DNA of 64,000 bases from Pseudomonas arsenicoxydans (GTDB taxonomy: Bacteria; Pseudomonadota; Gammaproteobacteria; Pseudomonadales; Pseudomonadaceae). A program made the position numbers and the translations under genes. Below the pieces are notes generated by a model. It was not told where the DNA came from, made no database searches, and was given only the letters and a program-made list of their open reading frames with translations. The DNA lies in contig NZ_LT629705.1 in assembly GCF_900103875.1 (NCBI RefSeq), forward strand, positions 3,667,001 to 3,731,000, written 5' to 3'. This document shows positions 9,293 to 28,144 of this stretch, piece by piece (position 1 is the stretch's first letter; each line of letters begins with the position of its first letter).

Positions 9293-9306
9293 CCCCAAAT
9301 GTGGGG
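9293..9306. promoter_or_regulatory. CCCC-N6-GGGG palindrome 1, candidate activator site for the export/curli operon
   Basis: CCCC-AAATGT-GGGG, embedded in a longer inverted repeat (TTTCCCC...GGGGAAA, 9288-9309). Its centre is 42 bp from that of palindrome 2, four helical turns, and about 125 bp upstream of the -24 element. The same pattern recurs upstream of two other sigma54 promoters in this window. The alternative reading is a stem without a T-tract acting as a weak terminator of the mnxG unit. Confidence 0.5.
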
Positions 9307-9334
9307 AAAGCTTCAGGGGCAATTCCGAGTGCTT

Positions 9335-9348
9335 CCCCGCCTTTGGGG
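9335..9348. promoter_or_regulatory. CCCC-N6-GGGG palindrome 2, candidate activator site
   Basis: CCCC-GCCTTT-GGGG, about 83 bp upstream of the -24 element of the promoter at 9423. It is phased at 42 bp with palindrome 1, as expected for two bound activator dimers on one DNA face. Assignment to MnxR is inference. Confidence 0.5.
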
Positions 9349-9422
9349 GATGGAGTTCCTGAGATAAAAGTTTTTTCCACGAAAATCAATAAGTTGTATC
9401 GGTCGAAAACCGGCGCTCAGCC

Positions 9423-9437
9423 TGGCATGAAGTGTGC
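9423..9437 (+). promoter_or_regulatory. sigma54 (-24/-12) promoter of the export/curli operon
   Basis: TGGCATGAAGTGTGC matches the RpoN consensus TGGCACG-N4-TTGC with the invariant GG and GC at exact spacing and two mismatches. It lies 67 bp before the TTG start of the receiver-domain gene, leaving room for a short leader, and no better sigma70 promoter is visible. The nearest activator of the right class in the window is MnxR. Confidence 0.7.
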
Positions 9438-9503
9438 GTTAGCCTAATCAAGGCGCGTACTCCCAGGCACGAATATCGGACCTGCGGTTTCAAGGAGTCC
9501 ACC

Positions 9504-10037
9504 TTGTTAAACAAAGTACTGGTTGTTGAAGACGAACAGCTCCTTGCACAAAACCTCCAGGATTACCTGCAGGCGCAAGCGCTGAACGTCCGGATAGCGC
9601 ACAACGGTTACGAAGCGATTGGCGAAGCCGAACGCTTTGAACCCGATGTGATGGTGTTCGATTACCGCTTGCCCGATATGGAAGGCTTTCAGGTGCTCGA
9701 CGCCGTCCGCCAGAACAGGAAGTGTCATTTTGTGCTGATTACCGGGCACCCCACCGCTGAAGTCTGTGAGCGGGCCCGGGAACTGGGAGTCAGCCATATC
9801 CTGTTCAAACCGTTTCCGATGGCGGAATTGGCCCGAGCAGTCTGTGACCTTTTAGGGATGGAGCGCGAACGCCGGGCAGGCGCAAGCCAATCCGAGGGAT
9901 TCGTCGAACGACGCCAGAGCAGGACCGAAAGTTTCCCGCTGCAGTTGTACGACGGCAGTTGGGTGCTGGCAGATCGTCGACGAAGCTCATCGACTTCCAT
10001 GGCACCAGACGACGAACAATTGCTCACCGGGGAGTAG
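9504..10037 (+). CDS. orphan response-regulator receiver protein without DNA-binding domain
   Basis: 177 residues. I chose the TTG at 9504 because AAGGAGT sits 8-12 bases upstream and the receiver fold begins at once (MLNKVLVVEDEQ). Acidic pocket residues Glu9/Asp10, phosphoacceptor Asp53 (VFDYRLPD), the conserved Thr/Ser region (VLITGHP) and Lys in LFKPFP are all present, so it should be phosphorylatable. The last 55 or so residues are Arg/Ser-rich with no output domain I recognise. As first gene of the export operon it may tune assembly by protein contact, or act as a phosphate sink for MnxS1/MnxS2. The MnxR receiver has the same start pattern (LLVEDDELLAENIQTYL versus LVVEDEQLLAQNLQDYL), hinting at a shared kinase. 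Confidence 0.82.
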   Translation: MLNKVLVVEDEQLLAQNLQDYLQAQALNVRIAHNGYEAIGEAERFEPDVMVFDYRLPDMEGFQVLDAVRQNRKCHFVLITGHPTAEVCERARELGVSHILFKPFPMAELARAVCDLLGMERERRAGASQSEGFVERRQSRTESFPLQLYDGSWVLADRRRSSSTSMAPDDEQLLTGE

Positions 10038-10121
10038 TGGCGCGACCAGCGGTTCCGGCCTCCACCGAAATTGCTCGCCGCGTCGACAGGGCTCAAAGCC
10101 CCCGGCGTTGGAGAGCAAGCC

Positions 10122-11828
10122 ATGGACCGTCTATCCCTTGCCGTAGAACCGGCGCTGTTGGAATGTGTACCGTCCCGTTTTACCAGTGAGCAACTGGCCC
10201 AGGCCCGGGCCAGGGCAACCAGTTCCGGGGAACGGGTCCTCGAAGCCCTCGGGGTGTTGTGCGAACTGGCCCCCATGCCCTTCATCCAGTGCCTGGGCGC
10301 AACCCTGCATTATCCGGTGCTCGACACCGACACGCTGTTCAAGGCCACCCCGGTGTTCGACCGGGTCACCCTGGCCCAATGCCTCAAACGCGAATTCATC
10401 CTGCTGCGTCACGACGATGCGGTCATCGGCGTATTTGCCGACCCCTTCGATACCACGCGCCTGGCCTGGATCGATGACTGCCTGCACGGTGCTCCGCTGT
10501 ACCTGGTGCATGCCGACGACCTCAAAGCCTATCTGGCTCGCCACGAAGAGAGCTTCCACGCGGTGGAATCGCTCAATGCCCAGGCTGACGCCAACGTCGA
10601 AACCGATACCCTGCAAAGCCTGTCCCTGACCAGCATCAGCGAAGATGCCAGCGTTGTCGTCAAACTGGTCAACTCGACCTTGTACGACGCGCTGAAAATG
10701 CATGCCAGCGACATCCACCTGGGCACCACCGGCAGCGGCCTGGTGATCAAGTACCGGATCGATGGCGTGCTCAACAACATCAGCAAGATCCAGGGCAGCG
10801 AGTTCGCCGAGCAGGTGATCTCCCGGGTCAAAGTCATGGCCGAACTCGACATCGGCGAAAAACGCGTGCCCCAGGACGGTCGCTTCAAGATCGGCATCAG
10901 CGGCCGGCAGATCGATTTTCGGGTGTCGATCATGCCGAGCATTTTTGGCGAAGACGCGGTGTTGCGGGTCCTCGACAAACAGGACCTGGCGGACAAGGTC
11001 AGTGGCGTGCAATTGCAGGCCCTGGGCTTTGAAGAAGAAACCCTGCGTGCGCTGCGCCGGCTCGCGGCCGAACCCTACGGCATGGTGCTGGTGACCGGCC
11101 CGACCGGTAGCGGCAAGACCACCACGCTGTACGCGATGATCACCGAGATCAACCACGGCGTGGACAAGATCATCACCATCGAAGACCCGGTTGAATACCA
11201 ACTGCCGGGCGTCCTGCAAATTCCGGTCAATGAAAAGAAAGGCCTGACGTTCGCCCGTGGCCTGCGCTCGATCCTGCGCCATGACCCGGACAAGATCATG
11301 GTCGGTGAAATCCGCGACCCCGATACCGCGCAGATCGCCGTGCAGTCGGCACTGACTGGCCACCTGGTGTTCACCACCATTCACGCCAACAACGTGTTCG
11401 ACGTGATCGGCCGGTTCACCCAGATGGAAATCGACCCCTACAGCCTCGTCTCGGCCCTCAACGCCGTGCTGGCCCAACGGCTGATCCGGCTGGTCTGCAG
11501 CAGTTGCAGCGCGCCGAGCAATCCGAGCGATGAAGAGCTGCGCCAATCCGGCCTCGACCCGCAAAACGTCGACCATTTCCACTTCGTCCATGGCAAAGGC
11601 TGCGGCCATTGCCGTGGCACTGGCTATCGCGGGCGTACCGCGATTGCCGAGCTGCTGCACCTGGACGATGAGCTGCGGCAGATGATCGTCGAGCGCCAAC
11701 CCATTTCGAAAATCAAGGCACACGCGTGCAAACGTGGCTTGCGCCTGCTGCGCGAGTCGGCGCTGGAACTGGTTGCAGAGGGGCGGACCACGCTCGAGGA
11801 GATCAATCGTGTCACTTTTGTCTCGTGA
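10122..11828 (+). CDS. secretion ATPase, GspE/PilB/MshE family
   Basis: 568 residues, starting at the ATG at 10122 (GGAGAG upstream). The N-terminal third is a degenerate GspE-N/MshE-N region. The ATPase domain has Walker A GPTGSGKTTT (about 326-335), an Asp box and Walker B-like GEIRD, and His-box residues TTIHAN. A zinc-binding tetracysteine insert (CSSC near 459 and CGHC near 494) is present, as in GspE/PilB assembly ATPases and unlike PilT. It powers pseudopilus extension from the cytoplasmic face of the inner membrane. The next gene's GTG start lies inside its 3' end. Confidence 0.9.
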   Translation: MDRLSLAVEPALLECVPSRFTSEQLAQARARATSSGERVLEALGVLCELAPMPFIQCLGATLHYPVLDTDTLFKATPVFDRVTLAQCLKREFILLRHDDAVIGVFADPFDTTRLAWIDDCLHGAPLYLVHADDLKAYLARHEESFHAVESLNAQADANVETDTLQSLSLTSISEDASVVVKLVNSTLYDALKMHASDIHLGTTGSGLVIKYRIDGVLNNISKIQGSEFAEQVISRVKVMAELDIGEKRVPQDGRFKIGISGRQIDFRVSIMPSIFGEDAVLRVLDKQDLADKVSGVQLQALGFEEETLRALRRLAAEPYGMVLVTGPTGSGKTTTLYAMITEINHGVDKIITIEDPVEYQLPGVLQIPVNEKKGLTFARGLRSILRHDPDKIMVGEIRDPDTAQIAVQSALTGHLVFTTIHANNVFDVIGRFTQMEIDPYSLVSALNAVLAQRLIRLVCSSCSAPSNPSDEELRQSGLDPQNVDHFHFVHGKGCGHCRGTGYRGRTAIAELLHLDDELRQMIVERQPISKIKAHACKRGLRLLRESALELVAEGRTTLEEINRVTFVS

Positions 11829-12612
11829 TCGTTATGTCGCCGTGCTCGGCGCCAGTGGTGTCGGCCTCGGTCAGCGCAAGGGCAGTGAAATCCTGTGGCT
11901 GGGCAGCGTCGGCTTTATCGACGAAGGCTTCCATGCCTGGGCCGTCGCCCTCGAAACCCTCGACCGCTTGCTGGGCGAACATGCCCCCGCCGGTGCCGAA
12001 TTGAGCGTGGTGATCTCCGGTCACTTCAGCCGCTTCTGCCTGGTGCCCTGGAGCGAACAGATCAGCAGCCCCGACGAATTGCTCGGGTTTGCCCAGCTGT
12101 GTTTCGAAGACCTTTACGGCGCACCGACGCAACCCTGGAGCATGGTGCTGTCGGCTGAGCCTGCGGGTTACGACCGGATCGCCACCGCGCTGCCCGAAGA
12201 CTTGCTGGCGCGCCTGCGCAGCCTGGTCAGCGGCCGCGGCCTGCGTCTGCGCTCGGTGCAACCGTACCTGATGGCGGCGTTCAACCACTTCGATAAAAGC
12301 CTCGATGCTGGCGACTTCCTGTTCGTGGTGGCTGAGCCGGTGCGCAGTGTTTTGCTGCTGGCGAGGGAAGGGCGCTGGACCTCGGTGCGCTCGGTCGGCA
12401 GCAACGACAGCGATGCCGCACTGAGTGCATTGATCGGCCGTGAAAGCCAGTTACAAGCCTCCACCAGCGAGCGGCCGCTGAACATTTACCTGCACGCGCC
12501 AGCTCGCATTGATGTGCAGCCTGACGTACCCGGTGTGCACCTGCGCACCCTCGAAGAGGACCGGACTGGCGTACGCGATAGTTTGTACGTCATGTCCCGG
12601 GCGGTGGCCTGA
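11809..12612 (+). CDS. PilM/GspL-cytoplasmic-like export protein
   Basis: 267 residues. I chose the GTG at 11809 because GAGGAG precedes it at ideal spacing; it overlaps the ATPase gene by 20 bp. The protein has no membrane segment. Beta-rich opening (RDRYVAVLGASGVGLGQ) and later VVISGHFSRFCLVPW, LRSVQPYLM and DFLFVVAEPVRSVLLL look like the diverged actin-like fold of PilM/MshI. Recognition is by weak similarity plus position: it is followed by PilN-, PilO- and PilP-like genes in the standard order. It likely couples the ATPase to the inner-membrane platform. Confidence 0.6.
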   Translation: MSLLSRDRYVAVLGASGVGLGQRKGSEILWLGSVGFIDEGFHAWAVALETLDRLLGEHAPAGAELSVVISGHFSRFCLVPWSEQISSPDELLGFAQLCFEDLYGAPTQPWSMVLSAEPAGYDRIATALPEDLLARLRSLVSGRGLRLRSVQPYLMAAFNHFDKSLDAGDFLFVVAEPVRSVLLLAREGRWTSVRSVGSNDSDAALSALIGRESQLQASTSERPLNIYLHAPARIDVQPDVPGVHLRTLEEDRTGVRDSLYVMSRAVA

Positions 12613-12613
12613 C

Positions 12614-13159
12614 ATGCGCGCCCTGACGCTCGACTTCCAGCCGCGCCGCCGCTCGGGCCCATTGGGCTGGAGCCTGCTGGCCGGCGGCGTGGTGTTGGTG
12701 ATGAGCTGCTTTGTCGCGCAACAGCATGTCACCGAACAGGCCTCGCAACAGCAGGGCCATTTGCAGCACGCCCAACGCGTCCTCACTGGCGACACCGGCG
12801 CCACGTCCACCCTGACCCCGGCTGAAACCCGTGAGCAGGCGCAGAACCTGGCTGAAATGCGCAAAGTCTCGCAGCAACTGCGCCGGCCCTGGGAGCGCCT
12901 GTTCGCCATGCTCGAAGCCATGCCACGCGACAACATTGCCTTGCTGAGCCTGACCCCGGATGCCCGCAAAGGTCAGGTGCGCATCAGCGCCGAAGCGCGC
13001 GACCTGGAAGCGATGCTCGACTTCCACCGCCGCCTGGAAGCCAGCGATGAACTGTCGGATGTGTCGCTGCTCAGCCATGAAATTGTCGTGAAGTCCCCTG
13101 AACAACCGGTGCTATTCAACCTGTCGGCTAACTGGGAGATCGGCGATGCGAATCTCTAG
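12614..13159 (+). CDS. PilN/GspL-like inner-membrane export protein
   Basis: 181 residues with one membrane segment (about 17-34, GWSLLAGGVVLVMSCFVA), a periplasmic coiled-coil-like stretch rich in Gln/Glu, and a small C-terminal ferredoxin-like fold (GQVRISAEARDLEAMLDFHRRLE). This is the PilN/fimbrial-assembly layout. It begins 1 bp after the preceding stop and ends 14 bp inside the next gene, so translation is coupled. It should form the inner-membrane alignment complex with the next two products. Confidence 0.7.
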   Translation: MRALTLDFQPRRRSGPLGWSLLAGGVVLVMSCFVAQQHVTEQASQQQGHLQHAQRVLTGDTGATSTLTPAETREQAQNLAEMRKVSQQLRRPWERLFAMLEAMPRDNIALLSLTPDARKGQVRISAEARDLEAMLDFHRRLEASDELSDVSLLSHEIVVKSPEQPVLFNLSANWEIGDANL

Positions 13160-13694
13160 ATTGATCGTCCACGAATACCTGCAAGGCCTGGGTGTGCCCG
13201 GCGTGGCCGGATTGGCGATGCTGTTGCTGGCACTGGTCTGGGCCTTGGGTGGCCTGATGCCTGACTGGAGTTCGTTGCAAACCCTCACCCAGCAGACCCG
13301 CGAAGCCGGCGAGTACCTGGCCAAGGTCGAAGACGGCAGCGTCGCCGCCCCGGTGGTGCCGCAACGTCAGCTCGATGACTTCCGCAGCAAGTTACCGTCG
13401 CAGCCACAAGCCACCGTAGCCATCGACAAGATCTACGCGCTGGCGGCCCAGGAACACATCACCCTGGCCCGCGGTGAATACTCGCTGGGCGTCGACCCCA
13501 AGACCCACCTCGCGCGTTATCAGATTCTGCTGCCGGTGCGTGGCAGCTACCCGCAACTGCGGCGCTTCCTGCACGCCTTGCTCGGCCAGTTGCCGGCCGT
13601 GGTGGTAGAGGACGTGGAGTTCCAGCGTAAAAAAATCGCCGACACCGACCTGACCGGGCGGATCCGCATGACCCTTTACCTGTCGAGGTCATGA
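13146..13694 (+). CDS. PilO/GspM-like inner-membrane export protein
   Basis: 182 residues with one membrane segment (about 17-36, GVAGLAMLLLALVWALGG), a coiled-coil region and a C-terminal domain (RYQILLPVRGSYPQLRRFLHALLGQLP) matching the PilO ferredoxin-like fold. It overlaps both neighbours, the downstream one by the ATGATGA junction. Expected to pair with the PilN-like protein. Assignment rests on topology, this short motif and gene order. Confidence 0.7.
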   Translation: MRISRLIVHEYLQGLGVPGVAGLAMLLLALVWALGGLMPDWSSLQTLTQQTREAGEYLAKVEDGSVAAPVVPQRQLDDFRSKLPSQPQATVAIDKIYALAAQEHITLARGEYSLGVDPKTHLARYQILLPVRGSYPQLRRFLHALLGQLPAVVVEDVEFQRKKIADTDLTGRIRMTLYLSRS

Positions 13695-14212
13695 TGAATA
13701 CCAAACGCGTAGTGGGTTGGGTGGCGTTCTTCGGCGTATCGGCGGCGCTGACTTGGGGGCCTAATTACTTCATGCCCTCGGAGCAGGGCGATGCGGCGGT
13801 CGCGACCAGCGTCACGCCGGCTAAAAGCAAAACCCGTGGCACATTACCGGCCACTACGGCCAGTGACAAACCGACCGTGATCAACGACCTGAGCCCGTCG
13901 GGCGACCTGTTCGCCGCCCACAGCTGGAAAGCGGCACCGACACTGGCCAGCGTCAACGAACAACCCGTTAACCAAACCCCGGTGGTGCAAGTCCCCAGTG
14001 CGCCGCCGATGCCTTTCCAGTTCATTGGCAAGCTTGATGATCGTGCCGACCTGCAAGTGTTCTTGCAGAACGGCGAAAAAATATACGTCGTGCGCAAAGG
14101 GGATGTGATCGACGACACCTGGAGGATCGAGGGGATTTCCGATGTGGAACTCCGCTTTGTCTACCTGCCTCTGCATTTGTCCCAGACCTTGTCTGTGGGG
14201 AGCGCGCAATGA
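13691..14212 (+). CDS. PilP/GspC-like periplasmic linker protein
   Basis: 173 residues. One N-terminal membrane segment (about 7-24) is followed by a Thr/Ala/Pro-rich linker and a C-terminal homology-region-like beta domain (PFQFIGKLDDRADLQVFLQ, NGEKIYVVRKGDVIDDTWRI). This is the signature of GspC/PilP proteins, which bind the N-domains of the secretin and link inner and outer membranes. Its stop overlaps the start of the secretin gene by 4 bp (ATGA). Confidence 0.75.
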   Translation: MMNTKRVVGWVAFFGVSAALTWGPNYFMPSEQGDAAVATSVTPAKSKTRGTLPATTASDKPTVINDLSPSGDLFAAHSWKAAPTLASVNEQPVNQTPVVQVPSAPPMPFQFIGKLDDRADLQVFLQNGEKIYVVRKGDVIDDTWRIEGISDVELRFVYLPLHLSQTLSVGSAQ

Positions 14213-16044
14213 ACAGATCCCGTTTGCTGATGAACCTTTGCATATGTGCAGGGCTGGCAGCATGCAGCTCGGCGCAGGTTGCCAAGCAGGAAGGGGCAGA
14301 CCTGATGGAGTCGGGTCAGTACGAAGCCGGCCTGGCGCGTATTCAGGAAGGGCTCAAGGAAAACCCTCGCGACACCGAATTGCACCTGGCCCTGACCAGC
14401 GGCCGTGCCCGTGCGGTGACGGCGTTGTTGACCCAGGCCGAAATGGACCGCGCCCAACGTGATTTCGCCTCTGCCCGCCTGACCTATGGCCGGGTGTTGA
14501 CCTTGGAGCCGAACAACCGCCGGGCCCAGGATGGCCTGCGCCAGCTGGAGCACATGCGCAGCCTGGACGACAAACTCGAACTGGCCCGGGGCGACCTGCG
14601 TCGCGGCGACATCTACGGTGCCGATCGCCAAGTCAAACAGATCCTCGAACTGGACCCCAAGAATGACGGCGCCCTGGAGTTGCAAGGCAGTATCCGCCTG
14701 GTACAGAGCCGCAACGTGATTCCGTATCCGCAACTGCGCACTCGCCTGGACCGGCCGGTGACCCTGGAATTTCGCGACGCCAACCTCAAAACCATTTTCG
14801 AAGTGCTGTCCCAGGTCGCCGGTTTGAACTTCATCTTCGACAAGGACCTGCGCCCGGACATGAAGGCCACCATCTTCGTACGTGACGTGCGCATCGAAGA
14901 CGCTGTGGAACTGCTGCTGCAACAGAACCAGCTGCATCAGAAAGTAGTGAATGAAAACACCTTGCTGATCTACCCCGACTCGCCGCAAAAGCTCAAGGAC
15001 TATCAAGAGCTGGTGATGCGCACGTTCTACCTGACCAGCATCGATGCCAACACCGCGTTGAACATGATCAAGACCATGCTCAAGACCCGTGATGTGTTCG
15101 TCGATGAACGCCTCAACACCCTGACCATGCGCGACACCGAAGACGCGGTGCGCATGGCCGAAAAACTCCTGCAATCGCAGGACCAGTCCAACCCCGAAGT
15201 GGTGCTGGAAGTGGAGGTGATGGAAGTCGCCACCCAACGGATTCTCGACCTCGGGCTGCAATGGCCGAACACCTTCGGCGTGGTCAACACCGACGGCTCG
15301 GCCGTGACGCTGCTCGATCAACTCAAAGGCATCAACTCCAGCCGGATCAGTATTTCGCCGTCGCCCCAGGCCAAGATCAACGCGCAGGACAATGACATCA
15401 ACACCCTGGCCAGCCCGGTCATTCGGGTCAGCAACCGCGAACAGGCGCGTATCCACATCGGTCAGCGTGTACCGATCATCAGCGCCACTTCGGTGCCTTC
15501 TACCCAGGGCCCGGTCATCACCGAAAGCGTTACCTACCTGGACGTCGGTCTTAAACTGGAAGTACAGCCGACCGTGCACCTGAACAACGAAGTGGCGATC
15601 AAGATCGCCCTGGAAGTCAGTAACGCCACGCCGCTGGAACCGACCCGTCAGGGCACGATTCCGGTGCAGGTTGACACCCGCAACGCCCAGACCACGCTGC
15701 GCCTGCATGACGGTGAAACCCAGATCCTCGCCGGCCTGATGCGCAACGACCACGGCGCCACGGGCAACAAGATTCCAGGGCTTGGCGACATTCCAGGCCT
15801 GGGCCGTCTGTTCGGCAGCAACAAGGACACCGTCGGCAAGTCCGAACTGGTGCTGTCGATCACACCGCGCGTGGTGCGCAACCTGCCGTACCAGAGCCCG
15901 TCGGACATGGAATTCACCACCGGCACTGAAACCAGCATGCACATCCAGGCGCCGGAACGCGGGATAGAAACACCGATCCAGAATGAACACATCGATCGGC
16001 CGGTGGCTTCCGCCACTACCACTGTCGTCGTTGAGAAACGCTGA
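14209..16044 (+). CDS. outer-membrane secretin (GspD/PilQ/MshL family), lipoprotein with TPR-like N-terminus
   Basis: 611 residues. A lipoprotein signal ends at Cys19 (LAAC-SS). Residues about 25-165 are helical repeats of TPR type (AGLARIQEGLKENPRDTELHLAL; ARLTYGRVLTLEPNN), which are not part of ordinary GspD. Then come an STN-like domain (VTLEFRDANLKTIFEVLSQVAG), an N1-like domain, and the secretin core with VPIIS, VGLKLEVQPTV, ILAGLMRN and IPGLGDIPGLGRLF. It forms the outer-membrane channel. The TPR plus lipid anchor may replace a separate pilotin, which is inference. The architecture resembles MshL/BfpB-type secretins more than XcpQ. Confidence 0.9.
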   Translation: MNRSRLLMNLCICAGLAACSSAQVAKQEGADLMESGQYEAGLARIQEGLKENPRDTELHLALTSGRARAVTALLTQAEMDRAQRDFASARLTYGRVLTLEPNNRRAQDGLRQLEHMRSLDDKLELARGDLRRGDIYGADRQVKQILELDPKNDGALELQGSIRLVQSRNVIPYPQLRTRLDRPVTLEFRDANLKTIFEVLSQVAGLNFIFDKDLRPDMKATIFVRDVRIEDAVELLLQQNQLHQKVVNENTLLIYPDSPQKLKDYQELVMRTFYLTSIDANTALNMIKTMLKTRDVFVDERLNTLTMRDTEDAVRMAEKLLQSQDQSNPEVVLEVEVMEVATQRILDLGLQWPNTFGVVNTDGSAVTLLDQLKGINSSRISISPSPQAKINAQDNDINTLASPVIRVSNREQARIHIGQRVPIISATSVPSTQGPVITESVTYLDVGLKLEVQPTVHLNNEVAIKIALEVSNATPLEPTRQGTIPVQVDTRNAQTTLRLHDGETQILAGLMRNDHGATGNKIPGLGDIPGLGRLFGSNKDTVGKSELVLSITPRVVRNLPYQSPSDMEFTTGTETSMHIQAPERGIETPIQNEHIDRPVASATTTVVVEKR

Positions 16045-16046
16045 TC

Positions 16047-16520
16047 ATGAACGCCTCGCAACGTGGTTTTACCCTGATCGAAGTCGTGGTGACGCTGGCC
16101 CTGATCGGCCTGCTGGCCGGCATGGCCGCGCCGCTGACCGAGACCGTGGTGCGCCGGGGCAAAGAGCAGGAATTGCGCACGGCGTTGTACCAGATCCGCG
16201 ACGCCATCGACGCCTACAAACGTGCCTACGACGCCGGTTACATCGAGAAGTCGCTGGAAAGCAGCGGCTATCCACCGAACCTGAAAGTGCTGGTCGAAGG
16301 CGTGCGTGATGTGCGCAGCGCCAAGGGCGCCAAGTTCTACTTTCTACGGCGCTTGCCGCATGACCCGCTGACACCGGTCAAGCGTGACGACAACGGTGGC
16401 TGGGGCTTGCGCTCCTACGACAGTACGGCTGAAAACCCGCGCGATGGCGAAGACGTCTTCGACGTTTATTCCCATGCGCGCGGCAAGGGTCTCAACGGCA
16501 TCGCCTACCGGGAGTGGTGA
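16047..16520 (+). CDS. pseudopilin, GspG-like
   Basis: 157 residues. Short leader MNASQRG, then the prepilin cleavage motif G/FTLIEVVVTLALIGLL with Glu at +5. The body has PPNLKVLVEGVRDV, LRRLPHDPLTP and GWGLRSYDS, matching major pseudopilins whose C-terminal loop binds calcium. It starts 2 bp after the secretin stop. It would polymerise into the pseudopilus. No prepilin peptidase is encoded in the window, so one from elsewhere must process it. Confidence 0.86.
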   Translation: MNASQRGFTLIEVVVTLALIGLLAGMAAPLTETVVRRGKEQELRTALYQIRDAIDAYKRAYDAGYIEKSLESSGYPPNLKVLVEGVRDVRSAKGAKFYFLRRLPHDPLTPVKRDDNGGWGLRSYDSTAENPRDGEDVFDVYSHARGKGLNGIAYREW

Positions 16521-16523: not shown

Positions 16524-16898
16524 ATGCGTCGGCAGAAGGGTTTTACCCTGTTGGAACTGATGGTGGTCATGGCAATCATCGCAACCTTGATGACCATTGC
16601 CCTGCCGCGCTATTTCAACAGCCTCGAAGCGTCCAAGGAAACCACGCTGCGCCAGAGCCTGTCGGCCATGCGCGAAGCCCTGGATCACTACTACGGCGAC
16701 ACCGGGCGCTACCCCGATTCCCTGGAACAACTGGTGGAACAGCGTTACCTGCGCAACCCGCCGACGGACCCGATTGCCGAACGCAAGGACACCTGGGTGC
16801 TGGTCGCGCCACCTGACGGCGTGGCGGGCGGGGTGGCCGATATCAAGAGCGGTGCCACAGGGAGGGCGCGTGATGGCAGCCTTTACTCCGAGTGGTAA
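16524..16898 (+). CDS. pseudopilin, GspG/H-like
   Basis: 124 residues. Leader MRRQKG, then FTLLELMVVMAIIATLMTIALP with Glu at +5. The rest (YYGDTGRYPDSLEQLVEQRYL, PPTDPIAERKDTWVL) is the short globular head of a type II pseudopilin. It lies 3 bp after the previous pseudopilin and its end overlaps the start of the next gene by 26 bp. Confidence 0.85.
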   Translation: MRRQKGFTLLELMVVMAIIATLMTIALPRYFNSLEASKETTLRQSLSAMREALDHYYGDTGRYPDSLEQLVEQRYLRNPPTDPIAERKDTWVLVAPPDGVAGGVADIKSGATGRARDGSLYSEW

Positions 16899-17412
16899 GC
16901 CTTCCGACGAGGCCGGTTTCACCTACCTGGGCGTGCTGTTTCTGATCATGCTGATGGGCATGGGCCTGGCCAGTGCCGGTGAGTTGTGGGCGACCGCCGC
17001 GCGCCGGGATCGCGAACGTCAGTTGCTGTGGGTCGGCACTCAATACGCCCAGGCTTTGCGCAGCTACTACCGCAGTTCGCCGGGGCTGGCGCAGTACCCC
17101 AAAGAGCTGGAAGACCTGTTGCAGGATGAGCGTTTTCCGACCCCTAAACACCATCTTCGCCAGCTCTACCCGGACCCGATCGGCGGCGGGGAATGGACGT
17201 TGATGCGCGGCTTCGACGGACGCATCACCGGCCTCAACAGCCCGTCCACGGACCTGCCGCTCAAGCAGACAGATTTCCCCAGCCAGTGGTCGGACTTCAC
17301 CGGCATGGCGAGCTACACAGACTGGCAGTTTGTCGCCGAGAAAGCCTTCCTCGACGGCACTTCCGGCCCGGTGAAAAACCAGTCCACCTTGCCCCAGGCG
17401 CTGTCGCCATGA
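16873..17412 (+). CDS. pseudopilin-like protein lacking the conserved Glu at +5
   Basis: 179 residues, ATG at 16873 after GGGAGGG. A 14-15-residue leader ends in G, followed by FTYLGVLFLIMLMGMGLASAG. The position that is Glu in ordinary pilins is Gly here, as in minor tip pseudopilins of the GspK/PilX kind. The head contains RSYYRSSPGLAQYPKELEDLL and HHLRQLYPDPIGGGEWTL, similar to the other pseudopilins here. It may sit at the pseudopilus tip. The stop overlaps csgE by 4 bp, so the secretion and curli genes are translationally joined. Confidence 0.78.
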   Translation: MAAFTPSGKPSDEAGFTYLGVLFLIMLMGMGLASAGELWATAARRDRERQLLWVGTQYAQALRSYYRSSPGLAQYPKELEDLLQDERFPTPKHHLRQLYPDPIGGGEWTLMRGFDGRITGLNSPSTDLPLKQTDFPSQWSDFTGMASYTDWQFVAEKAFLDGTSGPVKNQSTLPQALSP

Positions 17413-18217: not shown

Positions 18218-18248
18218 GGGGCATTTGGGTCGATGGGGAGTTAAGGAC

Positions 18249-20638: not shown

Positions 20639-22087
20639 TTACTGCTGCAACACAGTCGCCCGGTTGTCAGCCCCCAGTTGTTGAATCGTCGCCATCTGGG
20701 TCGTGCCGCTCTGATCGACACTGGCAATGTTGCCGGTGCCGCCCTGGGTCACGTAGGCGACGTTCATGGTGTCAGCCTGTTTGACGGTGATCATGTTGTC
20801 GCTGCCATACAGCTGCGTGGTGTACGCCTGGTTGCCGCTGCCCGACTGGTCGAACTCGGTGGTGTTGCCTGAGCCGTTGCTGGTGCCCTGGGCCAGGTTG
20901 GTGGTGCCGCGCTGGTCGGCGATCAGGATGTTATCGCTGCCGTTCTGATCGAAGTACAGCTCGTTGTAGTTGTCTGCCTGGCTGACCGTGGTTTTGTTGC
21001 CGCTGCCGGTTTGGTTGGTGGTCATGATGTGGCCGACGCCGTCTTGTTTGAAGCTTGCGATGTTGCCGTTGCCGGCCTGGGTGATGGTCGCGCGTTGGTT
21101 GCTGCCGAACTGGCCGCCCTGTTGCGGGCCTTTCCAGTTGCTGGCGTAGACCTTGTTTTCGCTGCCCACGGAAGTGGCGTTGAGCACGTGGCTGTCGCCG
21201 CTCTGGTAGGTGAAGTGGACGTTGCCGGTGCCTTGCTGGTACAGCGCGAGGACCGAGCCGACGGAGTCGAACTGGTCGGCGTAGATGGCGTTGACGTCGC
21301 CGACTTGCAGGACCTGGGCGTTGTTGTTCTGGCCGAAACTCTGGTCGACCACGGTTTCGTTGGTGTGCCCGTACTGGTTGACGGTGGCTTCGCTGGCGGT
21401 TTGTGCGCCTTGCCAGACTTCCGTGGCGTTGTAGTCGCCGAACTGGTTGACGGTGATGGTGCCGCCGATGCCATCGCGCTGGTCGCCATAGGCGTAGTTG
21501 CCTTCGCCGGCCTGGTTGAGGTTGATCTGGCCGCCCATGTGGGCGATCTGTTCGGCGGTCGCGTAGTTGGCGGTGCCGTACTGGATGATCATCGCGTTGT
21601 TACCGACGCCCAGTTGAATCTGTTCGATGTTGGCTTCGTTGTTGTCACCGAACTGGAAGGTCTGGCCTTTGGTGGCTTCCTGGCTGTCTTGATAGACGAA
21701 CGAGAAGTTGCCGCTGCCTTGCTGTTGTTGCAGCGCCTGGTTTCCACCCATGCCGATCGACTGGCTGGCATGGCTGGTGTTGAAGCTGCCGACCTGTTGT
21801 TGGGTGATGGTGCTGCCGTCTTCGAACAGTTGCTCGGCATAGCCGGCGTTGTAGTCGCCGATTTGATCCTGGGTGATGGTGCCGGTGGCGGTGTCTTGTA
21901 CCGCGGCGGCATCGTTGCCCTGGCCGAGTTGGTGTTGCGTGGCGGTGCTGAACGGGGCCGCTGTCTGTTTCACATCGGCGATGTTGGCGGTGCCGACCTG
22001 GGACTGGTTGGACACGCTGTCGTCGGCCATTGCCTGGGCGCTGACGATGACCAGTATGGCGGCGGTGAGGGGCGTCAGTTTGAACAT
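20639..22087 (-). CDS. csgA: giant major curlin subunit CsgA-like
   Basis: 482 residues, about three times the usual curlin length. Signal peptide about 1-21 (VIVSAQAMA-DD). The rest is about two dozen imperfect repeats of 18-22 residues with the curlin pattern Q.G..N.A...Q, for example QIGDYNAGYAEQ, QFGDNNEANIEQ, QAGNGNIASFKQ and YGSDNMITVKQ. Such repeats stack as amyloid beta-hairpins, with Gln and Asn ladders inside. It would be exported unfolded through CsgG and nucleated by CsgB. It is the last gene of the minus-strand operon and is followed by the terminator at 20591. Confidence 0.88.
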   Translation of the reverse strand: MFKLTPLTAAILVIVSAQAMADDSVSNQSQVGTANIADVKQTAAPFSTATQHQLGQGNDAAAVQDTATGTITQDQIGDYNAGYAEQLFEDGSTITQQQVGSFNTSHASQSIGMGGNQALQQQQGSGNFSFVYQDSQEATKGQTFQFGDNNEANIEQIQLGVGNNAMIIQYGTANYATAEQIAHMGGQINLNQAGEGNYAYGDQRDGIGGTITVNQFGDYNATEVWQGAQTASEATVNQYGHTNETVVDQSFGQNNNAQVLQVGDVNAIYADQFDSVGSVLALYQQGTGNVHFTYQSGDSHVLNATSVGSENKVYASNWKGPQQGGQFGSNQRATITQAGNGNIASFKQDGVGHIMTTNQTGSGNKTTVSQADNYNELYFDQNGSDNILIADQRGTTNLAQGTSNGSGNTTEFDQSGSGNQAYTTQLYGSDNMITVKQADTMNVAYVTQGGTGNIASVDQSGTTQMATIQQLGADNRATVLQQ

Positions 22088-22635: not shown

Positions 22636-24879
22636 TCAGTTGGCGGTGACCGTCACGGTGCGCACGGTGCCTTGGGACGAGCTAATGGTCGCTGTCGGGT
22701 TGGCTGACGGGATCACCGTGGTGGTGTTATTTACCGTCAACCGCCAGCGTCCGGTCACGGGCACAGTGGTGGTGCCCAGGGTCGCCAGCCCGGTCGGGGT
22801 GCTGACCTGCACGGTGATGGTGTTGCCGGTGGTCACCGATGAGGTGCCCGCGAAGTCCCAGGTGAAGCGGTTGTTGGAACGGGCCGACACGGTGGCGGTG
22901 GTCACGGTGAAGGTTTCCGCAGCAGGCCTTGGCGAGACTTGCACCGTGACCGTCGCCGGTGTCGACAGGGCGCCGAAGCTGTCCCGGGCGATGTAGGTGA
23001 AGGTTGTGGTGAAGGCCGTTGTGACCGTGGCCGGTGGCGTGTAGGTGATCACCGTGCCGTCGGTGCTGACGGTGCCGCGACCTGCTGCCGGTTGCGTCAG
23101 GCTGGCGACGCCCAGCGGCACGTTGCCTTCCGGATCGGTGTCGTTGGCCAGCACGTTGATCGGTATCGCCACGCCCAGGGTCGCGACGGCGTCGTTGACT
23201 GCCACCGGTGGCCGGTTAGGCGCCACGGTGATGGTCACGGTGGCTGGTGTGGTCGAGGCCAGGCCTTTGACGTCTTGGGCCTTGTAGGTGAAGGTCGTTG
23301 TCAGCGGTGCGTTGACCACGGCGGGCGGGGTATAGACCACCGCAGTCGTGCCGCTCAATGCCACGGTGCCTTGCCCGGCAGCCGGTTGGGTCAGCGCGGT
23401 GATGCTCAACGGCGTGTTGCCGTCTGGGTCACTGTCGTTGGCCAGCAGGTTGAGGGTGATCGGCACGCCGAAGCTGGTACTGCCGGTGTCGGCGACGGAG
23501 AGCGGCGCCTGGTTTTCGCCGGTGTCCGGTGCCGTCCCGACGACCACGACAGGCTCGGTATCACTGCCGCCGGCAGCGGATTTGACGGTGACGGTGGCCG
23601 GTGGCTGGGTCAGGTCGGAAACGGTGATTTTTTGCAGGGTGCCGGATTTCGACAGGCGTCCGTACCCTTGCGCAACCATGTCCGGCACCGCTACTTCGTC
23701 CGTGGAGGTGGCCTCGATCAGCAGGCTGTGATTGCTCCAGTTGTAGCGAGCAGTCTGGATTTTCACCACGTCTGTGAGTTTGCTCGACACCGCCGTTGGC
23801 CGGGTGGTGCCGGCCGGGTTGGTGGCGGTCACCACCACGACCGAAGGCACGGGGCCGTTGATCAGGTGATTGCCGAAGAACGAGCCATTGTTGTCACCGA
23901 CCAGGTTGGTCTGGCAGGGCGTAGGCGGTGGTCCGGGGACCAGGGCGAGGGTTTCGCGAAAGCACAGGCTCGAGCTGTTGTCGGCAGAGCCGAAGACTTC
24001 GACCCGAGTGCTGCTGCCGGTGCCGGAGGAGGTGCGGCGGTACGTGGCGCGGTTGACCTCCACATGGGTCTGTGCGCGGTTGTCGAGGACTTTGCCGGAG
24101 ACGGTGAAGAGGCTGGTCTGGATGGTCCCCGCCGGTCCTTGGATGCGCACGAAGTTAGTGTTGTTGGGGCTACCGGTGACCGCTTCGGTGAGGTTCGGGT
24201 CACCGATAAAGGTTTCTACCGACCCGGTGTCCGGGTTCACTTCAGTGTAAGGGCCGTTGACGCTGCGCAGGAATGGCCCGATGGCGCCGTTGAGCGCTCC
24301 GGTGAAATTGCCCGGTGCACCGATGCCGACATCTTTGGTGATGTTGATCGCACGACGGCCCGGGGTGGTGACGTTGACCGTTTCCACGCCGTACGGGTGG
24401 GTAATGGTGTAAGTCCCGGCGGTAGGCACGTTCACCCGGATGCGGATCCGCGCGAAGCTTTGCTGATCGCCATCGACAGGGGTGCCCGAGGCGAATGCCG
24501 CTTCGACCCCGGCCACGTAGGCGTCCATCCCGTAGCCAGCGGCGTTATTGGGAATCGTGGCGTCGGCCAGGAACCAGAAGCCTTCGTCTGGCCAGTTGTC
24601 CGGGAACACCATCGGCAGGGTGTCATCGAAAATGCCCGGAGTCGGCAGCAGGGTGCACATGTAGGCCGGCGGCGTGGCGGCCGGCACCCGCGAACTCGTG
24701 GCGCGCGACTGGCACAGTTCCATCGACAGCAAGTTGTTGTCCTGATACCACATCGGGAATTTCCCGGTGGCGAAGGTGTAGGGGCCGGGGTCGACGGCAG
24801 CGAGTTGCGCAAAAGCACTGCCGGACAGCGATAGAGTCAGTCCCAGGGCGTTGAGCGCCAGGCGTGGCCAGTTGTTCAT
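22636..24879 (-). CDS. large exported protein with tandem cadherin/Ig-like domains, surface candidate A
   Basis: 747 residues, ATG at 24879 after AGGAGG. Signal peptide about 1-24. Residues about 25-430 are a module shared with the neighbouring gene (AVDPGPY, PTPGIFDDT, FARIRIRV, TYTITHPYGVE, TPGRRAIN, GPFLRSVNGPYTE). After that come two repeats of about 95 residues of the bacterial cadherin-like/Ig type (VNDAVATLGVAIPINVLANDTDPEGN, TFTYIARD), then a Thr/Val-rich C-terminal domain. No anchor is seen. Likely secreted or surface-bound, perhaps through the export machine encoded opposite or by binding the amyloid. Function unknown. Confidence 0.72.
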   Translation of the reverse strand: MNNWPRLALNALGLTLSLSGSAFAQLAAVDPGPYTFATGKFPMWYQDNNLLSMELCQSRATSSRVPAATPPAYMCTLLPTPGIFDDTLPMVFPDNWPDEGFWFLADATIPNNAAGYGMDAYVAGVEAAFASGTPVDGDQQSFARIRIRVNVPTAGTYTITHPYGVETVNVTTPGRRAINITKDVGIGAPGNFTGALNGAIGPFLRSVNGPYTEVNPDTGSVETFIGDPNLTEAVTGSPNNTNFVRIQGPAGTIQTSLFTVSGKVLDNRAQTHVEVNRATYRRTSSGTGSSTRVEVFGSADNSSSLCFRETLALVPGPPPTPCQTNLVGDNNGSFFGNHLINGPVPSVVVVTATNPAGTTRPTAVSSKLTDVVKIQTARYNWSNHSLLIEATSTDEVAVPDMVAQGYGRLSKSGTLQKITVSDLTQPPATVTVKSAAGGSDTEPVVVVGTAPDTGENQAPLSVADTGSTSFGVPITLNLLANDSDPDGNTPLSITALTQPAAGQGTVALSGTTAVVYTPPAVVNAPLTTTFTYKAQDVKGLASTTPATVTITVAPNRPPVAVNDAVATLGVAIPINVLANDTDPEGNVPLGVASLTQPAAGRGTVSTDGTVITYTPPATVTTAFTTTFTYIARDSFGALSTPATVTVQVSPRPAAETFTVTTATVSARSNNRFTWDFAGTSSVTTGNTITVQVSTPTGLATLGTTTVPVTGRWRLTVNNTTTVIPSANPTATISSSQGTVRTVTVTAN

Positions 24880-24914
24880 GATGCCTCCTGATGAGGATCT
24901 GGGCATGTGAGCGT

Positions 24915-26261
24915 TCATGGCAGGATGACCACTTCTTCGGTATCGGTGCCGCCATTGGAGGACGTCACGCGAACCTTGGCCGGTGGAATGGGCGAGATGC
25001 CGGTCGCCAGGGTTTTCACTGCGCCGTCACCACTGAGGGCGCCGATGGCGGCGCCGCTGCCGGACGTCGCGGTGAGCACCGGTGGCGAGGTTTCATCACT
25101 GGTGGAGGCCACGATCGTGAGTTGCCCGGTGTTCAGGCTGTACTCGGCGCGCTGGATGACCACCAGATCCGATAACGGCATCGACAGGGTGGTGGGCGTG
25201 CTGCTGGGGATGGCCACGTGGTTGTCCGCGGTCAGTTGCAAGGTGGTGGGCAAGCTCGGGTTTGTCGACGACTGGGCGTACCAGCTGCCGGTGCCGTTGA
25301 GTTCTGTCAGGTTCAACACCGGATTGTTGCTGGTCAGGGCGACGGTGCCTGGAGGCGGCGGCGCCAGGACGAACACGTCTTGCTGGGCCACTGGCGCACT
25401 GTCGCCGGCCTTGCGCGAATAGGTGCTGCGCTGGGTGATCATCGGTGTCGGCCGCACGACCGTGGACAACTTGCCGGAGATGGCGAATGCCGTGGTGGTC
25501 AGGTCGATCCCGTTGGGGCCTTCGATGCGGATGAAGTTGGTGTTGAACGGACTGCCGGTCACGGCTTCCGAGAGGTTCGGGTCGCCGATGAATTGCTCGG
25601 CGGAACCGGTCACCGGATTGGTTTCGGTGTAAGGGCCGTTAACGCTGCGCAGGAACGGTCCGACGTCACCCTTGAGGGCGCCGTCGTAGGTTTTCGGCAC
25701 GCCGATACCGATGTCGCGGGTCATGTTGATCGCCCGTCGCCCGGGGGTGTCAACGTTGAACACATCGACGCCATAAGGGTGGGTGATGACATAGGTCCCG
25801 GCCGCGGGCACATCGACGCGAATGCGGATCCGGGCGAAGCTGATCTGATCACCTTCCACCGGGTCACCACCGCTGAAGGCGGCTTCCACCGCGCTGACAT
25901 AGGTCAGGTCGATGCCCCTGGCCGCGTCGACGATGGCACCGTCGGCGGTGAACCAGAAGGCCTCATCCGGGAAGTTGGTGGGAAAGACCAGTGGTTTGGT
26001 GTCGTCGAAAATTCCGGGCGCCGGCAGCAGGTTGCACATGTACGTCGGTGCGCCAGGAGCACTTGGCACGCGCGAACTGACCGCCTTGGACAGGCACAGG
26101 TCGAGGGTTCGACCATGGGTGTCCTGATACCAGCCGGCAAAGGAACCGATGGCAGGTTGATAGGGGCCGGGATCGACCGCAAACAGCGCTGCCTGGGCAA
26201 TACCTTGGGCAAGCGCGCTGACGACCAGGGCGGCCGCCGTTTTGGACAGTAAAGGGTGCAT
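24915..26261 (-). CDS. exported paralogue of the shared module, surface candidate B
   Basis: 448 residues. I chose the ATG at 26261 because GAGGGA precedes it and a signal peptide (about 1-24, SALAQGIAQA) begins there. It is collinear with the first 430 residues of the next gene (AVDPGPYQPAIG, PAPGIFDDTKPLVFP, FARIRIRVDVPAAGTYVI, TPGRRAINMTRDIG) but lacks the cadherin-like repeats. It ends with GTDTEEVVILP, like the region just before the repeats in the paralogue. It is the first gene behind the sigma54 promoter at 26321. Function unknown; the conserved cysteines hint at a disulfide-stabilised fold. Confidence 0.72.
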   Translation of the reverse strand: MHPLLSKTAAALVVSALAQGIAQAALFAVDPGPYQPAIGSFAGWYQDTHGRTLDLCLSKAVSSRVPSAPGAPTYMCNLLPAPGIFDDTKPLVFPTNFPDEAFWFTADGAIVDAARGIDLTYVSAVEAAFSGGDPVEGDQISFARIRIRVDVPAAGTYVITHPYGVDVFNVDTPGRRAINMTRDIGIGVPKTYDGALKGDVGPFLRSVNGPYTETNPVTGSAEQFIGDPNLSEAVTGSPFNTNFIRIEGPNGIDLTTTAFAISGKLSTVVRPTPMITQRSTYSRKAGDSAPVAQQDVFVLAPPPPGTVALTSNNPVLNLTELNGTGSWYAQSSTNPSLPTTLQLTADNHVAIPSSTPTTLSMPLSDLVVIQRAEYSLNTGQLTIVASTSDETSPPVLTATSGSGAAIGALSGDGAVKTLATGISPIPPAKVRVTSSNGGTDTEEVVILP

Positions 26262-26320
26262 GAGTATTCCCTCTATCAGAGTACCTGTCCCGTGGGGATG
26301 GGTCAGTTGGGAGGGCTTCG

Positions 26321-26335
26321 GCAACTTCCATACCA
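26321..26335 (-). promoter_or_regulatory. sigma54 (-24/-12) promoter of the surface-protein/curlin operon
   Basis: On the minus strand it reads TGGTATGGAAGTTGC, which has every invariant base of TGGYAYG-N4-TTGC. It lies 60 bp before the ATG at 26261. This is the best sigma54 match in the window. Confidence 0.78.
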
Positions 26336-26424
26336 ATTTTTCAAAACCACCGGCAGAGGCCCGCAGTGAAGGCGTGCGGCGCACAATCGGCTGGACCGTG
26401 CAAAGCGCGCGAGCGGGCGACTGT

Positions 26425-26438
26425 CCCCAGTATTGGGG
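26425..26438. promoter_or_regulatory. CCCC-N6-GGGG palindrome upstream of the surface-protein/curlin operon
   Basis: CCCC-AGTATT-GGGG, centred about 98 bp upstream of the -24 element on the minus strand. It is the same symmetric pattern as at 9293 and 9335. It also lies between the two divergent transcripts, so it could influence mnxS1. Confidence 0.5.
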
Positions 26439-26551
26439 GTAGATGGGGGCAACGGGGCAGACGGGGAATTGGTGGGGGGACAAAACCCGAAGTCGGGCAA
26501 ATGCCGGTCAGTAGGCTATAAACCTATAGGGAGTTTCGGGGAACAACGTCC

Positions 26552-28000
26552 ATGAATATCCAGACCAGACCCCTTCAGCAGGAAGAGGCCGATATCCGCC
26601 TGAGCTCGCGCAAACAGCCGTTCAATCTGCTGCGCTGGTTCTCGCTGATCAGCATGGCCGTGATCGGCACGGTGGCCGTGGCGCTGGGGGCGGTGTCCAC
26701 GCGTTTCGTGATCACCGAGAGCGTGCAGCGCGATGCGTTGCTGACCTCGCAATTCATCCAGGCGATTGCCTCGGCCGAGGTACGCCATGTTGCCATCCCC
26801 AACGTGCGGACCATGGGCGAGTTGCTGGACCCGCGCAAAGACAAAGACTTTACCGACGTCGATCCCTTGGCCCGTGCCAGCGCCCGTGGCGAATTCCTCG
26901 ATCATGTCGAGCACTTGCCGGACGTGATCCTGGCCAACATTTATGCCCCTGACCGCATGGTGATCTGGTCGACCAATCCGGAACTGATGGGCACTACGAT
27001 CCATGCCGACGAAGACCTCGACCAGGCGTTCGCTTCCAGGATGCCGGTGTCTGCCAGTTACCACAACGTGGACGAGGGGCGCATGGAGCAGAAGTTCGTA
27101 ACGCCCCCGGATTACATCTTTATTGAAAACTACATACCGCTATTCGATGCCGACCACGAAAACGTCACGGCGATGGTCGAGATCTACAAGGAACCCAAGG
27201 ACCTGATCGAGCGCATGGAACGAGGCCTGGCGCTGATCTGGCTGGCCACGGCGCTGGGCGGTGGACTGATTTATTCAGGGCTGTACTGGATCGTGCGGCG
27301 GGCGGCGATCCTGCTGGCCACGCAACAAAAACAACTGATCACCAACGAAACCTTCGTGGCCCTGGGGGAGATGTCATCGGCGGTCGCCCATAGTCTGCGC
27401 AACCCGTTGGCGACCATTCGCTCCAGCGCCCAGCTGGCCCTGGAGTTCGACAGTGGTCCGGCGCACAAGAACATCAACGACATCATCGGTCAGGTGGATC
27501 GCATGTCGAAATGGGTTCGCGAATTGCTGCAGTCCTTGCGACCCCTTAATGATGAACCCGAGCCGGTGAATCTGGTGGCGGCTTTGCATGACAGCCTCAT
27601 GGCTTTCGAGCAGCAGATTGCCAAGGCCGGGGTCCACGTGGTGTTCGAGCCGAAGGAAACGCCGATGGTGCTGAGCCAGCAAGTGCAGCTCACGCAAATC
27701 CTCAACAGCCTGCTGGCCAACGCAGTGGAAGCGATGGACAGGGGCGGTACGCTGACCATCACACTGGAACCGAACGATGCCAAAGGGATTGGCGTGGTGG
27801 TGAGCGACACCGGCAAAGGCATGAACGAAGAACAGCGCAGCATGGCGTTCCGGCCTTTTTTCACCACCAAGCAAGGCGGGCTCGGCGTCGGGCTGGTCCT
27901 AGTGAAGCGGATCATGGAGCGTTTTGGTGGCGCGGTGAAACTCGATAGCCGCGAAGGCGAGGGCACTCGGGTCCGTTTGTCGTTCAAGCGCATTCCCTGA
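26552..28000 (+). CDS. mnxS1: membrane sensor histidine kinase MnxS1
   Basis: 482 residues. Membrane segments at about 30-50 and 229-248 enclose a periplasmic sensor domain of about 180 residues. The H-box has His280 (AVAHSLRNPLATIR), and the ATPase has the N-box (LLANAVEAMD), G1 (VSDTGKGM), F-box (FRPFFTTK) and G2 (GLGVGL). This is the NtrB-like class that pairs with sigma54 activators. By synteny (kinase, mcoA, SCO, kinase, sigma54 regulator) it is MnxS1, essential for Mn oxidation in P. putida GB-1. It is 55% or more identical by eye to the second kinase at 32123, so the two are paralogues. The 290-bp gap upstream is shared with the divergent surface-protein operon. Confidence 0.85.
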   Translation: MNIQTRPLQQEEADIRLSSRKQPFNLLRWFSLISMAVIGTVAVALGAVSTRFVITESVQRDALLTSQFIQAIASAEVRHVAIPNVRTMGELLDPRKDKDFTDVDPLARASARGEFLDHVEHLPDVILANIYAPDRMVIWSTNPELMGTTIHADEDLDQAFASRMPVSASYHNVDEGRMEQKFVTPPDYIFIENYIPLFDADHENVTAMVEIYKEPKDLIERMERGLALIWLATALGGGLIYSGLYWIVRRAAILLATQQKQLITNETFVALGEMSSAVAHSLRNPLATIRSSAQLALEFDSGPAHKNINDIIGQVDRMSKWVRELLQSLRPLNDEPEPVNLVAALHDSLMAFEQQIAKAGVHVVFEPKETPMVLSQQVQLTQILNSLLANAVEAMDRGGTLTITLEPNDAKGIGVVVSDTGKGMNEEQRSMAFRPFFTTKQGGLGVGLVLVKRIMERFGGAVKLDSREGEGTRVRLSFKRIP

Positions 28001-28017
28001 AACTGGGTATGAACTTT

Positions 28018-28031
28018 CCCCGTTAGCGGGT
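28018..28031. promoter_or_regulatory. CCCC-N6-GGGT near-palindrome upstream of mcoA
   Basis: CCCC-GTTAGC-GGGT has one mismatch to the CCCC-N6-GGGG pattern. It is centred 107 bp upstream of the mcoA -24 element. A weaker half-site (CCCC-GGGTAT-GG) sits 33 bp further downstream at 28051. Confidence 0.42.
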
Positions 28032-28129
28032 GTCTGGCCCCAGTCATTTTCCCCGGGTATGGCACATTGATGTTGATAAGCCATTGTTTTATCGAGTGTT
28101 AATACTTTCGTATAAACCTGTTACAAATC

Positions 28130-28144
28130 TGGCGAGCTCCTTGC
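28130..28144 (+). promoter_or_regulatory. sigma54 (-24/-12) promoter of mcoA
   Basis: TGGCGAGCTCCTTGC keeps TGGC, G at position 7 and the full TTGC at exact spacing. Transcription would begin about 12 bp after the GC, near 28156, which supports choosing the ATG at 28187 over the one at 28166. Confidence 0.78.

Follow-up and report, generated by a model that had tools for sequence, protein, structure and literature searches.

We found that four gene units of a manganese (Mn) oxidation cluster in Pseudomonas share a promoter architecture in which a palindrome, CCCC-N6-GGGG, lies upstream of a sigma54 -24/-12 element. The palindrome, in the fuller form TTCCCCA-N4-TGGGGAA, is predicted from its sequence context to be the upstream activating sequence of MnxR. 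The cluster was analyzed in a stretch of 64,000 nucleotides (the window; G000:C1:3667001-3731000) of genome G000, a 6.50-Mb genome in one contig that its relatives identify as Pseudomonas. The four units are mnxG with its accessory genes; an operon that starts with a response regulator (RR) and encodes type II secretion system (T2SS)-like proteins and CsgEFG; an operon for an uncharacterised protein (P26k), a Big_9 protein and a curlin-repeat protein; and mcoA. The rarity of the palindrome, its conservation, its co-occurrence with mnxR, its presence at McoA genes outside the cluster and the position of MnxR as the sole local activator together make it very probably an MnxR enhancer, and it is nearly certain that the pair of palindrome and sigma54 element is a real regulatory feature. 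With both the role of Mn oxidation in bacteria and its control at issue, a defined DNA site gives a direct handle on what MnxR controls.

Promoter elements and their rarity in the genome

Three sigma54 elements and four palindromes had been recorded in an initial annotation of the window; read directly from the sequence, all lie where it had placed them, with GG and GC at -24/-12 spacing. The T2SS/CsgEFG operon has two exact palindromes, a distal one, CCCCAAATGTGGGG (predicted MnxR site 1, 9293..9306), and a proximal one, CCCCGCCTTTGGGG (predicted site 2, 9335..9348), 42 bp apart as had been noted, and a -24/-12 element, TGGCATGAAGTGTGC (9423..9437, plus strand). Between the palindromes and this element lies a candidate integration host factor (IHF) site, AATCAATAAGTTG (9384..9396, plus strand), with 0 mismatches to the IHF consensus WATCAANNNNTTR. 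The P26k operon carries one exact palindrome, CCCCAGTATTGGGG (predicted MnxR site, 26425..26438), and the sigma54 element TGGTATGGAAGTTGC (26335-26321, minus strand), while mcoA carries the imperfect palindrome CCCCGTTAGCGGGT (predicted MnxR site, 28018..28031, one mismatch) and the sigma54 element TGGCGAGCTCCTTGC (28130..28144, plus strand). From the end of the palindrome to the TGG of the element the distances are 116 bp (9293), 74 bp (9335), 89 bp (26425) and 98 bp (28018). The initial annotation had also proposed a look upstream of mnxG, and there, just 5' of the window, we found the same pair: CCCCAGGTTTGGGG (palindrome at 3664447) followed, with 98 bp between them, by TGGCATGCGGTTTGC (sigma54 site at 3664559), ahead of the gene start at G000:C1:3664629. 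The best IHF matches were clearly better than those in shuffled sequence at the RR, mnxG and mcoA promoters, and only slightly better at the P26k promoter.

The exact palindrome is rare. It occurs 39 times in the genome, which gives an expectation of 0.33 per 64 kb; the window holds five (Poisson P for at least five, 2.4e-5), and another lies 2.6 kb before it. The chance expectation of "a few" per 64 kb in the initial annotation was thus too high. When the 53 sigma54-like sites of the window (our own score, at least 3.8) were paired with palindromes of up to one mismatch at 45-150 bp, the result was the three named promoters plus a pair at 33025/33090, which has one mismatch and a sigma54 score of 3.8. 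Among the 33 exact palindromes outside the cluster (31 stretches), only two have a sigma54-like site 45-150 bp away, one scoring 4.3 and the other 3.8. Two exact palindromes of the window were dropped as targets: the one at 3213 lies within the mnxG coding sequence, and the one at 56190 has no sigma54-like site 45-150 bp away. The latter (CCCCATTTTTGGGG, 56190-56203) stands 115 bp 5' of the first gene of an exopolysaccharide cluster (~39-56 kb, minus strand).

Conservation of the pair in orthologous promoters

We surveyed 398 Pseudomonas genomes, 124 of them with mnxG, and read promoters in 20 genomes with higher MnxG identity (~90-96%), 20 with 74-82% and nine with mnxR and no mnxG match; G223, whose contig is too short, was left out, giving 49 genomes including G000. 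The palindromes are kept in orthologous promoters while their N6 cores vary. At the RR promoter, 39 of 40 cases have a sigma54 site, and in 39 an exact palindrome lies 45-150 bp from it. The pair was exact in 33 of 37 P26k promoters (36 with up to one mismatch), 23 of 41 mnxG promoters (35), 2 of 24 mcoA promoters (24) and 4 of 49 mnxS2 promoters (11); the corresponding values in shuffled promoter regions were 0.001-0.04 for exact palindromes and 0.05-0.27 with one mismatch, and for the RR, P26k, mnxG and mcoA promoters alone 0.01-0.04 and 0.11-0.27. Spacers of N3-N5 were rare (at most six loci per promoter). At least one of these promoters has an exact pair in 46 of the 49 genomes, G200 and G266 have a one-mismatch pair, and G331 has none there; in G331, an MnxG-like fragment stands behind an exact palindrome and sigma54 site (L129:10616-11064). 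Two of the 11 mnxS2 pairs (G201 and G271; L079 and L107) are in loci without mcoA and may be left-over mcoA promoters.

The alignment of 39 RR loci shows how selectively the palindrome is kept: every column of CCCC is invariant and those of GGGG are conserved at ~90% or more, with 36 different N6 cores. Spacing between the two RR palindromes is 40-45 bp in 38 loci, 16 of which have 42 bp. A consensus from 137 exact sites reads CCCC-A/G-A-NNN-T-GGGG-AA(A), i.e. TTCCCCA-N4-TGGGGAA; CCCC-N6-GGGG, as first annotated, therefore stands as the core of the motif and falls short of its full extent. As in upstream activating sequences, the conserved dyad lies within ~200 bp upstream of -24/-12. At L010:9480-9512 and in mnxG promoters, the stretch from palindrome to sigma54 site also holds additional half-sites, GTGGGGAAT, in repeated and in inverted form (GGGGAATATCCCC).

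A second, named set of 80 loci, whose species are partly those of the first, had the mcoA pair with up to one mismatch in all 55 readable loci (1 exact) and the P26k pair in 53 of 70.

Co-occurrence with mnxR

To follow the site across the genus, we scanned the 398 genomes, as the initial annotation had suggested for mnxR-bearing ones, for CCCC-N6-GGGG-N(70-100)-TGGYNNGNNNNKTGC. With mnxR called at E <= 1e-140, the gene is present in 133 genomes, including all 124 with mnxG. The pattern occurs in 114 of these 133 and in 35 of the 265 mnxR-less genomes, with 254 versus 37 matches in total and at least two matches in 90 versus 2 genomes; a reversed control pattern was found in 8 of 133 and 28 of 265. 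Of the 19 mnxR-bearing genomes lacking a match, six were read, and all have the pair by looser criteria (two with one mismatch only). Some matches in mnxR-less genomes are near-identical stretches in several species and, by eye, probably coding.

The non-oxidase units follow mnxR closely. A P26k-family match (E <= 1e-30) was found in 131 genomes, every one with mnxR; the two mnxR-bearing genomes without it are G223 (73% complete) and G331, and the match in G049 (6e-88 only) is probably a paralogue. CsgF (PF10614) is present in 37 of 40 mnxR-bearing genomes (the first 38 of the list, together with G266 and G331) and 1 of 40 mnxR-less genomes (the first 40). That one, G020, has a distant curli operon (CsgG 47%), in whose surrounding 16 kb no exact palindrome or pair was found. 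The secretin was found in 11 of 13 genomes searched. Five genomes without an mnxG match (G277, G021, G232, G246 and G387, three of them fragmented assemblies) keep the P26k pair. With mnxG itself in 124 of 133, the frequencies of P26k and CsgF indicate that the non-oxidase units are no less constant than mnxG.

McoA genes outside the usual place provide a further view of the site. A search of 13 genomes gave 16 such matches, either on a contig other than that of mnxR or at a distance of 13 kb to several hundred kb from it; 15 of them, from eight genomes, were read, and the partial match in G266 was left out. Every one of the 15 has a palindrome in the ~1 kb before the gene, exact in 7 and with one mismatch in 8, followed in 13 cases by a sigma54 site 82-139 bp on and in the other two by a similar element with C for T as its first base. 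The palindrome thus predicts further Mn-oxidation genes in Pseudomonas genomes. Elsewhere, palindromes with sigma54-like sites precede genes that by eye resemble metal efflux (TolC-like) genes (L133:3017, L134:2962; extra pairs in G262 and G221), which we regard as a lead only. An off-cluster site in G328 was set aside, having no clear target gene.

Relatives outside Pseudomonas

Among PLSDB plasmids, MnxR was matched at E <= 1e-100 in four records, all from Candidatus Manganitrophus (L280-L283), with the MnxR-like gene in pieces in two of them. The protein is 55% identical to MnxR, and the adjoining kinase is 35% identical to MnxS2 over nearly its full length, including the sensor part; a second activator nearby reaches only 40%. 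The divergent promoter beside this pair of genes has palindromes with sigma54-like sites in both directions, at gaps of 93-132 bp; the palindromes are exact in CP114557 and CP114562 and have one mismatch in CP114560. Six more one-mismatch pairs lie in the 309 kb of Manganitrophus sequence scanned, and three of these directly follow the MnxR-like gene. The Manganitrophus genes thus resemble those of Pseudomonas in the MnxS/MnxR-like pair and its palindromes with sigma54-like sites, and differ in their neighbors, which are polysaccharide export and TMEM165/GDT1 genes. Since the search set comprised plasmids only and the family is broad, these records support the link between site and reader more than a link to Mn. 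In 294 Pseudomonadota genomes, G639 held the sole further MnxR relative found.

MnxR as the predicted reader

MnxR (33585..35012, plus strand) has the architecture of an NtrC-type activator: a receiver, a sigma54-interaction AAA+ domain and a Fis-type helix-turn-helix (HTH). The HTH is nearly invariant in 50 loci, and the linker preceding it is variable. The sigma54-contact loop, a motif named GAFTGA, reads GAFTDA in MnxR and is invariant in the same 50 loci. The genome encodes 27 sigma54 activators, of which MnxR is the sole one in the cluster, with none other within 500 kb. MnxR scores below the cut-off of each of the 25 listed NCBIfam models (107 matched), including AtoC (391, cut-off 714), NtrC (388, 558.6) and PEP_resp_reg (362, 502.6); we therefore rejected its assignment as a PEP-CTERM-box regulator or as an AtoC or NtrC equivalog.

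We propose that a signal, presumably Mn, would reach MnxR through phosphorylation via MnxS1/MnxS2, and that MnxR would then bind its sites ~60-120 bp upstream. The half-site centers are 10 bp apart, so a dimer of the Fis-type HTH could meet both on one face of the DNA. DNA looping, with IHF at some promoters, may then bring the AAA+ ring to sigma54-RNA polymerase at -24/-12. This would co-induce the four units, namely mnxG and accessory genes, RR-T2SS-CsgEFG, P26k-Big9-curlin and mcoA. In much of the second MnxG group (74-82% identity), the site also stands before the mnxS2-mnxR operon, which in this part of the genus may itself be a unit and activate itself. A regulon of mcoA, an export machine and curli genes had been proposed at the outset, and the sites were found as described; the candidate regulon now extends to mnxG, the non-syntenic McoA genes and, in part of the genus, mnxS2-mnxR.

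Several observations weigh against this interpretation. The loci are related, and their counts are not independent events; the mcoA site is seldom exact, and 6 of the 41 mnxG promoters have no site with up to one mismatch in range. The N7 spacer is also frequent at the RR (35 of 40) and P26k (29 of 37) promoters, because of C or G runs, and the reversed GGGG-N6-CCCC occurs in 35 of 41 mnxG promoters. In the named set, 17 of the 70 P26k promoters (including L205, L217, L226 and L236) have no sigma54 site that we found; the palindrome is kept in all 17 (16 exact, one with one mismatch), GT replaces GC at -12 in the four that were printed, and these promoters speak against uniform sigma54 use. 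The 35 mnxR-less genomes with a pattern match belong here as well, as does the breadth of the MnxR-like family (7628 of 8000 candidates at E <= 1e-60). Finally, the nearest MnxR relative found outside the family (G639, 52%) is accompanied by a one-mismatch palindrome only, with no exact one.

Three other explanations were considered. Given the 27 sigma54 activators of the genome, and MnxR binding being a prediction, the palindrome could be a real enhancer of these promoters that is read by a different activator, encoded at another locus, with MnxR having an upstream or indirect role. We consider this unlikely: site and mnxR co-occur across the 398 genomes, mnxS2-mnxR carries the site in part of the genus, such sites adjoin MnxR homologues in another phylum, and the nearest 500 kb holds no further activator. 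A similarly low probability applies to the idea that MnxR reads the site at only some of the units, and that the curli and export genes are conserved through linkage in one gene island. All four units do lie within ~40 kb in G000, but in G277, G364 and G308 the exact pair is retained at an export unit separated from mnxR by 440 kb to 1.7 Mb, and sites also stand at the non-syntenic McoA genes.

It is far less probable still that the palindromes have nothing to do with activation and are terminators, RNA hairpins or G+C-rich repeats that arose by chance. Terminators can take the form of G/C-rich inverted repeats, and the palindrome at 56190 looks like one by eye; however, no gene ends in the divergent promoter that holds the P26k site, the distance to -24 stays within narrow limits for each promoter, and the other copies in the genome mostly lack a sigma54-like site. 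Conservation and co-occurrence with mnxR thus support, as a prediction, the proposal of the initial annotation that the palindrome is the MnxR site.

Genes of the units

The operons described here are inferred from gene spacing. The C-terminal part of MnxG occupies 14..3445 (plus strand), its gene starting 2.4 kb before the window, and is followed by genes for a beta-propeller protein, two SCO proteins, a cytochrome/PBP protein and a PpiC protein. The closely spaced export operon (plus strand) begins with the stand-alone RR (9504..10037; Response_reg is the sole domain found) and continues with a T2SSE-type secretion ATPase (10071..11828), a PilN-like assembly protein (12509..13159), a T2SSM_b-like protein (13146..13694), a secretin (14209..16044), two GspG-like pseudopilins (16047..16520 and 16524..16898, both under the equivalog cut-off), CsgE (17193..17801; its domain spans residues 100-201, and translation probably starts near 17410), CsgF (17798..18217) and the curli exporter CsgG (18225..19115); the intervening open reading frames (ORFs) partly have no Pfam match. 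The P26k operon runs on the minus strand in the order P26k (24915..26261; 448 aa, N terminus signal-sequence-like by eye), a P26k-like N-terminal part fused to Big_9/cadherin-like domains (22636..24918), a 153-aa ORF and the curlin-repeat protein, a curli subunit (20639..22087). P26k had no match in Pfam or NCBIfam; it shares with its neighbor (22636-26261) an N-terminal domain containing AVDPGPY, likewise without a match in either database. The genes for curli (type VIII) secretion (CsgE, CsgF, CsgG and curlin repeats) and for type II or Gsp-related secretion (secretin, T2SSE ATPase and pseudopilins below the equivalog cut-off) are thus present.

Downstream on the plus strand are an MnxS1-type sensor histidine kinase (26552..28000, named from gene order and the literature), the McoA-type multicopper oxidase (28187..30994, start inferred), a SCO1/SenC copper chaperone with a cytochrome c domain (30991..32022) and an MnxS2-type sensor histidine kinase (32123..33616), ahead of mnxR.

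Comparison with known systems

According to excerpts from the literature, strain MS-1 no longer oxidises Mn when rpoN carries an insertion (PMC11409713), IHF and sigma54 sites are predicted at PmnxG and PmcoA, and both promoters show Mn-dependent stationary-phase activation (PMC11930936). The terms palindrome, enhancer, inverted repeat and upstream activating are absent from the main texts of these two papers; older papers might describe the site. Strain OF001 has a similar mnxG operon with mnxS2/mnxR (PMC8218464, in part). For curli, passages of earlier studies describe csgEFG and csgAB clusters in P. putida (PMC3056050) and note that csgD is absent near most Pseudomonas csg operons, with other regulators suspected (PMC3521004, 2012). 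MnxR and its palindrome are a candidate answer to how Pseudomonas curli are controlled.

The regulon is of a known kind; what is new is that the P26k family and CsgF track mnxR, and that mnxS2-mnxR carries the site in some species. If oxidases, exporter and amyloid do belong to one regulon, this would suggest that secreted protein serves as the scaffold on which Mn oxides are deposited. More tentatively, MnxR may primarily act as master switch for a secreted amyloid matrix (P26k, curli and the T2SS-like exporter) with the Mn oxidases as clients, and MnxS/MnxR with CCCC-N6-GGGG an old cell-surface module shared with the Mn lithotroph Candidatus Manganitrophus.

Compared with NtrC-type sigma54 regulons, the system is alike in its dyad upstream of -24/-12, its paired sites with a candidate IHF site between, and its receiver-AAA+-HTH activator, and differs in the CCCC-N6-GGGG motif. 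It shares CsgE, CsgF, CsgG and curlin repeats with Pseudomonas curli operons, here with sigma54/MnxR as candidate regulator. A Gsp-related pathway is reportedly needed for secreting the Mn-oxidising factor of P. putida GB-1 (de Vrind 2003); going by the title alone, the likeness lies in a T2SS-like ATPase, secretin and pseudopilins beside Mn-oxidation genes. The closest counterpart is Mn regulation in GB-1 (MnxS1/MnxS2/MnxR, mnxG and mcoA), whose genes have homologues here: passages of PMC11930936 give no activator site, whereas here a candidate site extends the predicted regulon to the export operon, P26k-curlin and more McoA genes.

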